In this document: positions 1,046 through 6,177 of the stretch, piece after piece
Layout: every line of letters begins with the position of its first letter
Numbering within the stretch: position 1 is the stretch's first letter
Assembly (NCBI GenBank): GCA_022843805.1
Contig: JALHMY010000075.1
Location: forward strand, 1 to 50,258
From: Fuerstiella sp.
GTDB taxonomy: Bacteria; Planctomycetota; Planctomycetia; Planctomycetales; Planctomycetaceae
DNA: 50,258 nucleotides
Direction of reading: 5' to 3'
The notes under the pieces: model-generated
What the model was told of the DNA's origin: nothing
The model's database searches: none
Seen by the model: only the letters and a program-made list of their open reading frames with translations
Made by a program: the position numbers and the translations under genes

Positions 1046-2284
1046 ATGGCAAAAAAACGAAGCCAAAATCAATCAAAGCCAGCGAGTCTGAATTCATCAG
1101 AACTCGTCAAACGCCGTACGCCCACGAAGAGCAAGTCCGGCACTTCGACAACTCCGGGGGACTTCGAGTCGCTGGTGGTGTCGATTGTTCAGATCCATCA
1201 GCAGACTCAGGACTTCGCCGCCAGAGCCGTGAATCTCGGCCTGACGTTCCGAAACTGGTTCATTGGACACCGCATTGTCGAGTTCGAGCAGCAGGGACGC
1301 GACCGGGCTGCTTACGGCGAGAATCTGATGGACAAACTGTCCCAGCGTCTGGCTACTCACGGCTTGCCACGGGTCACCCCCCGCGAACTTCGACGCTACA
1401 GACAGTTCTACCAGGTTTATCCAGGAATTTGGGAGTCAGTGACTCCCAAATCTCTGGCGGAAGCAGGACTTGGCAAGTTTCTTCCCGAGAGAATTTTTCG
1501 ACCTGAACCAATTCGGGAGTCACTGACTCCCGAATCTGAAAATGTGGATTCAGCGTCTCCACAATTGATCCATCGACTTTCCTTCACGCACCTTTCCGAG
1601 CTCATCCAGCTTCCTGACGAAACCCAGCGTCGTTTCTACGAGATCGAATGTATTCGGGGAAACTGGTCAGTCCGGGAACTGCGACGTCAGATTGCCAGCC
1701 TGTATTATGAACGCAGCGGACTTTCGAAGGACAAAGCCAAATTGTCCACGATGGCCCATGCCGCAGCGGAAACGATGTTACCCGCTCAAATCATCCGAGA
1801 CCCTTACATCTTCGATTTTCTTGGTATCCGATCTCAGGACACGATGGGTGAATCGGACCTGGAAGACGCACTGCTGGACCGCCTGCAGGAGTTTCTGCTT
1901 GAGATGGGTCACGGGTTCTGCTTTGAAGCCAGGCAGAAGCGGATTCTGATCGGCGACGAGCACTTCTTTGTGGACCTGGTGTTTTATCACCGCGTGCTGA
2001 AATGTCATGTTCTGGTGGAGCTGAAAACAACCGCCTTCTCGCACGAGCATCTCGGTCAGTTGAACACTTATGTGGCGTACTACAGGAAGAACGAAATGTC
2101 CAAAGGCGACCAGCCGCCTGTTGGCATTCTGCTCTGCACGCAGAAGAACGAAGCACTCGTCGAATTCGCACTGGGCGACCTCTCGAACCAGCTCTTCGTG
2201 TCTCGGTACGCTGTGGAAATGCCAAAGAAGCAGGAGATGGAACGATTCCTTCAGGAGATCGGGAAGGAGGTCGGCTATGTTTAG
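1046..2284 (+). CDS. DUF1016/YhcG-family PD-(D/E)XK nuclease protein
   Basis: The 412-residue protein has a DUF1016-type helical N-domain (about residues 40-220) and a C-terminal PD-(D/E)XK-like nuclease fold (about 245-400). The nuclease core is visible as FFVDLVFYHRVLKCHVLVELK, where the Asp after FFV and the Glu-x-Lys form the expected metal-binding triad. Family members often sit inside type I restriction loci and defence islands, and their exact role is unsettled. This gene lies between the two halves of hsdM, and its end overlaps the hsdM 3' remnant by 8 bases. There is no strong ribosome-binding site before the ATG at 1046. Two REP-like palindromes lie within the coding sequence and encode IWESVTPKS and IRESLTPES, apparently tolerated insertions between domains. 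It is the only long intact frame in the restriction graveyard. Confidence 0.85.
   Translation: MAKKRSQNQSKPASLNSSELVKRRTPTKSKSGTSTTPGDFESLVVSIVQIHQQTQDFAARAVNLGLTFRNWFIGHRIVEFEQQGRDRAAYGENLMDKLSQRLATHGLPRVTPRELRRYRQFYQVYPGIWESVTPKSLAEAGLGKFLPERIFRPEPIRESLTPESENVDSASPQLIHRLSFTHLSELIQLPDETQRRFYEIECIRGNWSVRELRRQIASLYYERSGLSKDKAKLSTMAHAAAETMLPAQIIRDPYIFDFLGIRSQDTMGESDLEDALLDRLQEFLLEMGHGFCFEARQKRILIGDEHFFVDLVFYHRVLKCHVLVELKTTAFSHEHLGQLNTYVAYYRKNEMSKGDQPPVGILLCTQKNEALVEFALGDLSNQLFVSRYAVEMPKKQEMERFLQEIGKEVGYV
1427..1451. repeat. REP-like palindrome inside DUF1016 gene, copy A
   Basis: ATTTGGGAGTCA, one central base, then TGACTCCCAAAT: perfect 12-bp arms. It is translated in frame as part of IWESVTPKS. 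Confidence 0.85.
1511..1535. repeat. REP-like palindrome inside DUF1016 gene, copy B
   Basis: ATTCGGGAGTCA, one central base, then TGACTCCCGAAT: perfect 12-bp arms. Relative to copy A both arms carry the matching T-to-C and A-to-G change, so pairing is kept. It is translated in frame as part of IRESLTPES. Confidence 0.85.
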
Positions 2285-4572: not shown

Positions 4573-5537
4573 ACGCAGAACCGCGTCATCGCTGTGTTTA
4601 CGGATAAGACCAACTCTGATTATCTGGGCTACCGCTATCTCGGTGATTGACACGAACGACCACAGACAGACGCCGGAGAAGTTTTTGTCCAATGGAAGGC
4701 CGCTCAGGAACGAAGAGACAGGAATGGCCAGCGGTGAGTTGCTGGATCGACCACTGGCGGAGATGTGCGATAAGTCGCGGCTGCTGGATTTGATCCGGAA
4801 CTTTATTATCTTTGACGGCGGTCAGAAGAAGGTTCCTCGCCCGCATCAGTACACGGGTGTGAAAATGGCACAGGAACGCATTGCCAAACGCGAAGGCGGC
4901 GTGATCTGGCATACTTAGGGCAGCGGGAAGAGCATTCTGATGGTGCTGATCGCCAAATGGGCGATGGAGTATGATCCAGAGGCTCGAGTTCTGATCATCA
5001 CGGACCGCGATGAACTGGACAAACAGATCGAAGGCGTGATGCGGAACGCGGGTGTAGTCGGCGAGAACTCACCTTCGCCTCGGATCACCTCGCGATCCGA
5101 TTTTGTTCAGAAGCTGGGTGCGACCACGCCCCGGTTGCTATGTGCATTGATTCACAAGTTTGACGCATCAGACTTGAACGGAACACCGCCCGCCGTTCAT
5201 GGGAGAGTCTACGTCTTTGTGGACGAATGGCACAGAACCCATGGCGGCAACATGAACAAGCAGATGAAACGCTGGCTGGAAAAAAAATGCCATTTTCATC
5301 GGGTTCACGGGCACTTCCCTGCTGCGCAAGGATAAGCAGACGACTCGTGAAGTCTTCGGCACGTACATCCACACGTATAAGTTTCAGCATGCTGTAGCCG
5401 ACAACGTGGTGCTCGATCTGAAGTATGAGGCTCGCACAGTGCCACAGCGGCTCATGTCACGAGAAGCCATCGATAACTGGTTCGAGCACAAGACGAAGAA
5501 CCTGAACAACTTCCAGAAGGCTATTCTGCGAAAACGC
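4573..5537 (+). pseudogene. hsdR: hsdR remnant (type I restriction subunit), multiply broken
   Basis: Three pieces are recognisable. An N-terminal scrap, VIAVFTDKTNSDYLGYRYLG, stops at a TGA (4654-4656) where a Trp codon would be likely. The motor domain start (LLDLIRNFIIFDGGQKKVPR, then GGVIWHT) has TAG at 4916-4918 where the conserved Gln of WHTQGSGKS should be. The helicase core follows: GSGKSILMVLIAKW, then VLIITDRDELDKQIE and FVDEWHRT. At a run of eight A (5280-5287) the frame slips; the next frame continues IFIGFTGTSLLRKDKQTTRE, VFGTYIHTYKFQHAVADNVV and LNNFQKAILRKR, then homology ends. A full HsdR exceeds 900 residues, so the nuclease domain and the C-terminal half are largely gone. 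Not functional. Confidence 0.85.
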
Positions 5538-5865
5538 GTTCTGGTAGCACTTTCCGACAGCTTGAAAGTTCTGGGACTCAAGGGGCTTGGGGCGACCAGC
5601 TTAAAGCTTGCCAGACAGTTTTACACGGTCTTTGGGCAGATCGGTCAGAAGGCTTCTGACCAATGTTGCGTTCAGGCTGGCGAATTCCCCCCAACGGCCG
5701 CTGCTCGACACGCTGCAAACGCTCAGTCGCTACTTCCCCATTGGCTGGTCGCACTACGTGGAACTGTTGACCATTAGCGATCCGGATGAGCGAAGCTTCT
5801 ACGAGATCGAAGCGACCGCCAATCAATGGGGCGCCCCTGAGCTGCAACGCCCGATCGGCATCGCC
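5538..5865 (+). pseudogene. Second DUF1016 fragment, frameshifted
   Basis: Immediately after the hsdR remnant the frame reads GLKGLGATSLKLARQFYTVF and GQIGQKASDQ. A shift of frame near 5670-5690 then gives RPLLDTLQTLSRYFPIGWSH followed by YVELLTISDPDERSFYEIEA. These match successive segments of the DUF1016 N-terminal domain. The intact gene at 1046 has the equivalent FYEIECIRGNWSVRELRRQI, but the sequences differ enough that this is a separate paralogue, not a copy of that gene. It fuses in frame to the recombinase stub at about 5866. Confidence 0.65.
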
Positions 5866-6057
5866 AGGTGTGGTCGCAAGATCCCCCGCTGGTCCCCTGG
5901 ACAGCTTCGGAAAACACGAGTGACAAATGCTCGTCAGCAGGGCGACTTGGAAACGGCACAGCAGGTTCTGGGGCACTCAAGCAAACAGACCACGGAAAGG
6001 CACTATGCCGAAGTGGGTCTGTCACGAGCCGAAGCGAACGCCCATCAGTTTGGTTGA
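5866..6057 (+). pseudogene. Tyrosine recombinase (phage integrase) C-terminal stub
   Basis: The sequence RKIPRWSPGQLRKTRVTNAR, then QVLGHSSKQTTERHYAEV carries the HxxR-like box region (here QLRKT, with Gln-Leu-Arg), the LGH box and the catalytic Tyr context (TERHYAEV) of tyrosine recombinases. The N-terminal arm-binding and core parts are absent. The stub is joined in frame to DUF1016 sequence, so it is a recombination product. It sits immediately before the replication module that starts at 6178 and could be the leftover integrase of that element. Confidence 0.75.
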
Positions 6058-6177
6058 GTCTCGAGCCGTGATACAGTGACAATTGCAGGGATAGGCTGAT
6101 CCCCGAAAAGCGGTCCCGAAAGCCGCCTGCCCTGCATATTTCGACTTTCGGGTGTGTGACTTTCGAGAGTCAATGTT

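Follow-up and report, generated by a model that had tools for sequence, protein, structure and literature searches.

YhcG/DUF1016 nuclease genes keep a coding 25-nt palindrome at one site and in one codon phase

Introduction

Near the start of a 50,258-nt stretch of DNA from the planctomycete Fuerstiella sp. (positions 1 to 50,258 of contig JALHMY010000075.1, assembly GCA_022843805.1; here called the window), two 25-nt palindromes are translated as part of a predicted nuclease of the YhcG/DUF1016 family. A preliminary description of this DNA took them for mobile, REP-like units that had entered the gene, similar in idea to the coding repeats of Rickettsia. The locus therefore raises the question of whether the palindromes came to this gene from elsewhere or belong to it, and, if they belong to it, what keeps their two halves matched.

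Results

The host gene and its surroundings

The gene that hosts the palindromes is an open frame of 412 amino acids at positions 1046-2284 of the forward strand. Its product contains a DUF1016_N domain at residues 47-223 (Pfam E 1.7e-27; 96.6 bits against a cut-off of 32.8) and a YhcG_C domain of the PD-(D/E)XK nuclease type at residues 248-398, encoded at 1787-2239 of the same strand (E 3.4e-56; 189.9 bits against 32.5). With both domains above the curated cut-offs it belongs to the YhcG/DUF1016 family (PF17761 and PF06250), and it also matches the PADLOC candidate defence gene PDC-S02 (E 1.9e-127). A catalytic-type motif was found by pattern matching in 237 of 252 full-length DUF1016 members. 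The AlphaFold model of the protein is poor (mean pLDDT 60.9); a Foldseek search of the PDB with this model gave no match below E 0.1, and a sequence search of the PDB found no relative up to E 1. A weak match to the LmbU family of transcription regulators, far below its cut-off, covers residues 176-229 of the protein (frame 1046-2281) and is a hint of DNA binding by the second half of DUF1016_N.

The window opens within a decayed type I restriction-modification locus. An N-terminal fragment of HsdM is found at 555-1004 (HsdM_N, E 1.9e-19) and an HsdR-like fragment with a SWI2/SNF2 ATPase at 4940-5335 (TIGR00348, below its cut-off), both on the forward strand. Downstream of the latter sits a second, frame-broken DUF1016 remnant (5562-5860, forward; Pfam DUF1016_N match at 5635-5856), in which RQFYTVFGQIGQKASDQC and SHYVELL are read in different frames. 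The translation of 886-996, again on the forward strand, gives a weak Pfam match below cut-off to the N-terminal part of a further DUF1016 protein; this scrap overlaps the HsdM fragment region, so the locus once held several DUF1016 genes. The first 53 positions of the window form a 17-bp perfect inverted repeat, GTGGCCGAGAGGCCAGG, with arms 19 nt apart, which falls outside the class of palindrome considered here.

Two palindromes with arms that change in step

Both palindromes consist of perfect 12-bp arms around one central base, as first described. Palindrome 1 (ATTTGGGAGTCAGTGACTCCCAAAT) occupies 1427-1451 and encodes IWESVTPKS, while palindrome 2 (ATTCGGGAGTCACTGACTCCCGAAT) occupies 1511-1535 and encodes IRESLTPES. 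Translation confirmed that these peptides lie in the linker of the open DUF1016 frame, with a 59-nt spacer (1452-1510, forward strand) of variable linker between them. The arms do change in step, at arm position 9, with T/A in palindrome 1 and C/G in palindrome 2; the central base differs too, being G in the first and C in the second. Given the peptide and the codon usage of the gene, the probability of 12 matched pairs is 1.1e-3 for palindrome 1 and 2.9e-4 for palindrome 2. Searching the window for the 17-nt core with up to three mismatches gave two matches against a mean of 0.32 in shuffled sequence, where 2 of 100 shuffles reached two. Folded as RNA, each forms an 11-bp stem with a 3-nt loop (-14.8 and -16.6 kcal/mol). 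Inversion of the 59-nt spacer was also considered, as its reverse strand is open; the direct orientation in the relatives inspected by eye makes it less likely.

Copies of the core in the genome and the phylum

The preliminary description had named a lack of further copies in the genome as an outcome that would speak against mobile units, and for the core this was the outcome, 9.2 Mb containing only the two exact copies. The idea of a mobile repeat family in the Fuerstiella genome was rejected on a pattern search allowing two mismatches, which returned these two copies and four places with two mismatches each; the two of the four that were inspected (L003 and L004) are in unrelated ORFs. Spread of the same core across the phylum was likewise rejected, as it matched in 3 of 392 genomes: the genome of the window, with its two copies, G089 and G140. 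The match in G089 lies inside a DUF1016 gene. That in G140 lies in an unrelated ORF, which we take to be sulfotransferase-like, and as its arms do not extend the match was taken as chance.

Three more DUF1016 copies or remnants of the same genome reach the linker, and each has its own, different palindrome; a fourth, the scrap at 886-996, ends before the linker. In the remnant downstream of the HsdR-like fragment, palindrome 3 (5640-5664, centre 5652; 11/12 pairs) reads IGQKASDQC and stands behind the RQFY motif in the same codon phase as palindromes 1 and 2. A broken copy on contig 3 contains ATTGGTCAGACACCGTCTGAGCAAT (10/12) and ATTCTTCAGACACTGTCTGAAAAAT (11/12), and a locus on contig 11 has a 10/12 palindrome at the compact site, where it reads KVAALLRQL. 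The rule would thus seem to be a palindrome for each DUF1016 linker rather than one palindrome in many genes.

A family-wide palindrome in one codon phase

The family was sampled from 389 loci, 374 of them with a tblastn match, giving 360 distinct ORFs, which reduce to 294 representatives at 80% identity. The gene of the window is among the 360 ORFs and is represented by a relative among the 294, while two loci of its own genome (L118 and L121) are outside the set. The loci were not drawn at random: 80 of them are the best 80 of 122 relatives of the query, and of 120 stretches taken by coordinates part were chosen for a long or split match to the N-terminal domain, which favours members with a linker; the compact members described below serve as a check on this bias. 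The linker was located with a profile landmark that places 288 of the 294 genes and replaced a regular expression that placed 85.

Among the 294 representatives, 231 palindromes with at least 11 of 12 pairs were observed in phase 0, where the central base is the first position of codon 5 in the unit; the mean over 50 synonymous shuffles is 1.06. In the two remaining phases combined there are 8 such palindromes, with about 1.7 expected. At 10/12 or better, 335 of 341 phase-0 palindromes fall within the linker window. Per kb, the linker has 3.39 palindromes of at least 11/12, the remainder of the gene 0.045 and the flanks 0.060, the last figure including some second DUF1016 genes. The unit is nine residues long and is present in one to four copies per gene.

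Before the landmark, 239 of the 288 genes, from several phyla, have one or more palindromes of 10/12 or better, and 80 have two to four. With group labels that follow the records of the seed loci, such palindromes are present in 44 of 53 genes from searches round the genome of the window, 30 of 32 query relatives of mixed phyla, 30 of 38 gammaproteobacterial genes, 47 of 58 from Bacteroidia, 54 of 67 from the phylum of an Akkermansiaceae genome, 12 of 15 from the phylum of an Actinomycetota-labelled genome and 21 of 24 from mixed genomes. The single Escherichia coli representative has one as well, so that every group sampled shows the palindrome. The remaining 49 of the 288 genes score below 10/12; 39 of these are full-length with the catalytic-type motif, and the 42 full-length ones score 7-9. 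Taken with the different palindromes of the other DUF1016 copies in the Fuerstiella genome, the phase-locked site across the family indicates that the palindrome is for the most part passed on with the gene and reshaped where it stands.

The palindrome is constrained at the level of DNA

Codon choice within the unit follows the palindrome. Codon 1, for isoleucine, is ATT in 258 of 268 cases, where the usage of each gene would give 102, and in genes above 60% GC it is still ATT in 42 of 45 cases (10.7 expected). The last base of codon 8 is A in 291 of 292 cases (167.5 expected), and a purine takes the third position of codon 4 in 292 of the 296 cases in which that position is free.

The same is seen where there is no long linker. 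The 149 nine-mers that precede a motif of the S-W-x-H type have bimodal scores, with 64 scoring at least 9 (1.5 expected). Compact members were chosen by protein residues only, with Ile first and Glu, Lys, Gln or Asp eighth, a choice that favours the outer three pairs and is allowed for in the null; all 45 score 9-12 (1.2 expected) and 36 score 11-12 (0.02 expected). Their peptides are diverse, ranging from ILVSLIREL to IWTAVRSKL. In the 40 distinct compact sequences 95.7% of cells are paired, and the covariation is 0.692, compared with 0.151 (sd 0.020) on shuffling and at most 0.165 in slid controls.

With each pair scored in units chosen for their other pairs, matching is found in 78-94% of cases at pairs 2 to 9 (29-60% expected), and pairs 10-12 hardly depart from ATT/AAT. 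Pair 1 is nearly free (66% against 52% expected), and there is little coupling beyond pair 12. From one end, the unit therefore runs through ATT, seven pairs that match but are otherwise free, C, purine-N-pyrimidine and G, and closes with the mirror image. Read from sequence, this coupling profile is that of an 11-bp stem with a 3-nt loop, or of a symmetric duplex site. A functional RNA hairpin should have a stem that covaries and tolerates G-U; covariation is found here and tolerance of G-U is not, mismatches of the G-T and A-C kinds numbering 47 and 49 at pairs 3-8 and 76 and 108 at pairs 2-9, a comparison that arm copying by template switching could blur. As a sense RNA stem would favour G-U, the lack of a G-T excess places the constraint at the DNA level. 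These data show that YhcG/DUF1016 genes keep a coding 25-nt palindrome, at one site and in one codon phase, by constraint on the DNA.

The stems themselves are not fixed, even within a gene. In 48 comparisons between copies in the same gene, pairs 7-9 differ in 31-50% and pairs 2-6 in 10-23% (between genes 38-69%), and the left arms are identical in 11.

Palindromes at the edges of yhcG in E. coli

The yhcG alleles of E. coli that were examined have between one and three palindromes. In K-12 there are three with a 39-nt period, reading IHQTMSGEL, IPQTPSAEF and IWQTLSAKS; an O157:H7 strain has one perfect palindrome and strain SB0258h1 has two with other arms. Identity between K-12 and SB0258h1 is 62.1% in the linker, compared with 90.3% before and 96.2% after it. 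The gene has no restriction gene adjoining. Palindromes of the same class also stand outside it: a perfect one starts 16 nt beyond the yhcG stop and, in K-12, one of 11/12 starts 16 nt beyond the gltD stop. With a 38-nt query, E. coli genomes have a median of 3 and at most 6 places.

Two strains without yhcG (L390 and L391) have a gltD-nanQ gap of 67 nt with one perfect palindrome, the left flank of which is that of the gltD copy in K-12 and the right flank of which resembles that of the yhcG copy. The 121-nt junction is matched over at least 80% in 944 of 5426 genomes, the junction itself having been inspected in these two strains. In strain B C2566 (L127:5407-5850) yhcG stops at the end of its third palindrome and gives way to 444 bp of unrelated DNA with an ORF of 101 residues, annotated as a transposase and without a Pfam match. 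At least 80% of this DNA is present in 713 of 5426 E. coli genomes, and some part of it in 722. The events behind these arrangements may be only a few historical ones, and the edge copies could terminate transcription in both directions between the converging genes, so the evidence from E. coli is taken as suggestive.

Copies elsewhere

Edge copies were also found in L194, L293, L410 and a few others, most of the loci examined having none. In L194 the palindrome just past the gene shares its arms with one of two internal copies and is one base off the other. One of three upstream copies in L293 has the left arm of the internal palindrome, and the edge copies of L035/L151 and L368 are unlike the internal ones. 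At L410:1501-1555 two palindromes of the type in the window separate hsdM from a different type of DUF1016 gene, perhaps as the scar of a DUF1016 gene that was replaced. In L055 an ORF (284-979), the start of which presumably resembles HsdS, runs into DUF1016, and a perfect palindrome lies near the junction (centre 464). A survey of extragenic palindromes gave 14 rows of this class, of which 7 are one E. coli site and 2 one Bacteroidota site, and 38 further palindromes of other kinds.

The preliminary description was right that such palindromes occur outside coding DNA, as they do beside yhcG in E. coli, in one intergenic site of a gammaproteobacterium and in viral contigs. A core of the CAGAC type was found at 4 places in 185 genomes, 3 of them in DUF1016 genes and 1 the intergenic site (G776). 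The GAGTC/GAGAC type was found at 4 places in 194 genomes, a set centred on G660, in which a close relative of the gene of the window had been found beforehand; all 4 are DUF1016 loci, with 2 in the linker and 2 just upstream of the gene.

Viral contigs with the CAGAC core comprise 13 records (two of the contigs, L401 and L404, being the same region), of which 4 have it in DUF1016 genes and 9 have no DUF1016 by tblastn, so the palindrome can live there without the gene. In 7 of these 9 orphan copies the outer arms are fully matched, beyond what the pattern demanded. The orphans adjoin a serine recombinase, a RhuM-family gene (twice, in the same region), a SocA/PemK-like pair, an AAA_21 gene and others. 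L397 and L399 have one palindrome in common, in flanks that by eye appear unrelated. In L398 a pair of palindromes is present twice, at 4717-4764 behind an AAA-ATPase_like/PDDEXK_9 gene and at 6039-6086 behind a SocA/PemK-like pair. Two protein scans of the viral contigs found no relative, and three pattern scans with other cores gave no match. Together with the whole-genome copies outside DUF1016, the viral ones indicate that there is limited spread outside the gene.

Discussion

A palindrome that is fixed in place, with letters that change freely and halves that stay matched, suggests a structured DNA site that the nuclease uses or that acts on the nuclease. A cruciform is a Holliday junction, and a palindrome that extrudes one is the kind of DNA recognised by Holliday-junction resolvases. 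The nuclease domain of YhcG was predicted in 2005 to be closest to the YraN-like Holliday-junction resolvases (in the passages seen of PMC1189080), and on these two grounds we infer that YhcG may act on the palindrome. Our best explanation, which as a whole we hold tentatively and on sequence evidence, is that the DNA-constrained coding palindrome would be a structured DNA site on which the encoded nuclease acts in cis. The palindrome could form the 11-bp hairpin with its 3-nt loop, or a cruciform, and it might serve YhcG as an operator of the gene or as a site at which the nuclease cuts its own gene. Binding or nicking there could hold down expression of the gene and could make the locus prone to recombination, which might lead to the changes in copy number, the wholesale changes of arms and, at palindromes, the gain, loss and truncation of the gene. 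Copies within a single gene vary in stem sequence, which is at odds with strict recognition of the full stem; recognition would have to be structural or lax, through the shape, the ends, the loop and perhaps the inner stem.

The explanation with which the locus was introduced, that REP-like or Rickettsia-like palindromic units spread through genomes and settled in DUF1016 linkers, now appears unlikely. The palindromes are real, their arms do change in step, their place is the linker and copies exist in non-coding DNA; what found no support is the idea of mobile REPs that happened on this gene. The copies of the same class outside the gene, at the E. coli yhcG flanks, the intergenic site in G776 and the nine viral contigs, would be expected of a mobile element, as would a palindrome common to L397 and L399 in seemingly unrelated flanks and the one to three copies among the E. 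coli alleles. However, the family-wide palindrome keeps to one fixed site and one codon phase across phyla, in the compact members as well, and there are just two exact copies in the genome of the window, with 4 places in 185 genomes and 4 in 194. An alternative to which we give a smaller chance is that the palindrome is a site for some other host factor, such as a nucleoid protein, a recombinase, an SbcCD-like hairpin nuclease or a neighbouring system, the gene being only the carrier. The viral orphans near a serine recombinase, a RhuM-family gene, a SocA/PemK-type pair and an AAA_21 gene would fit this, but not the tie to DUF1016 in several phyla, which in E. coli holds with no restriction gene adjoining; of all the alternatives it seems the least probable.

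Two further alternatives concern the matched arms themselves. An mRNA hairpin that acts in the transcript, for instance through translation pausing, decay or attenuation, would account for stems that covary, for a central pair that is nearly uncoupled and for a shape that folds well as RNA. We nevertheless regard it as quite improbable, given that the mismatches tolerated in RNA are no commoner than A-C and that copies at the E. coli edges and in viral contigs stand outside the gene. Mutational upkeep without function, in which a template switch in replication rewrites one arm from the other and the protein tolerates the result, has in its favour that correction of quasi-palindromes is established in E. 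coli, that arms change together even between E. coli alleles and that the loop position is not copied. It leaves unexplained why one site in one family should start and stay palindromic across phyla, and does not account for the fading of the match beyond pair 12, the nearly fixed ATT and the purine at position -1, or the contrast in density between the linker and the rest of the gene; its chances seem to us slightly poorer again than those of the mRNA hairpin and better than those of a foreign host factor. A structured site for the encoded nuclease remains our preferred reading. With more hesitation, it could be extended to the locus as a whole: a nuclease family might carry the structured DNA site of its own nuclease in the reading frame, the need for a matched hairpin would dictate the linker residues more than protein function does, with residues 2 and 8 of the unit changing together as their codons have to pair, and the edge copies would make the gene a cassette that is lost, gained and rebuilt at palindromes, conceivably a PD-(D/E)XK counterpart of the REPtron.

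If correct, this would be a clear case of DNA symmetry overruling the choice of codons and amino acids in a conserved gene across bacterial phyla, and a likely substrate of YhcG would be written in its own gene. It would also provide a first handle on YhcG, the product of an E. coli K-12 gene without an assigned function and a candidate phage-defence nuclease.

Comparison with known systems

The YhcG/PDC-S02 candidate defence nucleases are the same gene family and are named without palindromes in the parts seen of PMC1189080 and PMC11719660. No description of palindromes in DUF1016 genes was found among the matches listed, in open-licence titles and the openings of abstracts, or in passages of PMC7967276, PMC4316617, PMC1189080 and PMC11719660.

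Other coding palindromes are known. Rickettsia palindromic elements, described in a passage of PMC4316617 as about 100-150 nt long and found in genes, RNA genes and intergenic DNA, are similar in that palindromes are translated in frame. In contrast, the YhcG palindrome has 25 nt and belongs to one site of one gene family in many phyla, and the searches of its own genome and of the 185 and 194 genomes did not find it in many different genes of one genome. PARCEL are coding tandem repeats with DNA dyad symmetry (PMC2996958, seen in part), in which the repeat is amphipathic and 25 residues long and the ORFs have no assigned function, many of them with membrane-targeting sequences; the YhcG unit is nine residues at the domain linker of a nuclease, and is not such a repeat. 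In the mitochondria of nematomorphs, coding palindromes keep DNA symmetry inside functional genes (from part of PMC6649704), but these are up to 284 bp long and confined to one animal group, with no link to a nuclease family.

Most alike in its presumed working is the REP/RAYT system, or REPtron, of enterobacteria and pseudomonads, where the gene for a DNA-processing enzyme is bordered by short hairpin-forming palindromes, and where palindrome and protein vary together between groups (PMC8266576, in the part seen). There the enzyme is a HuH tyrosine transposase, whereas YhcG is of the PD-(D/E)XK type, and REPs are extragenic and in high copy, whereas the YhcG palindrome is mainly inside the reading frame with few or no others found; in the genome of the window both exact copies are coding. 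The differences in enzyme fold, copy number and coding position place the YhcG system outside the REPtrons. Since each of the known kinds considered lacks a defining feature, we rate the anatomy of the YhcG palindrome as a new category, with a mechanism that we infer to be nearest to that of the REPtron.
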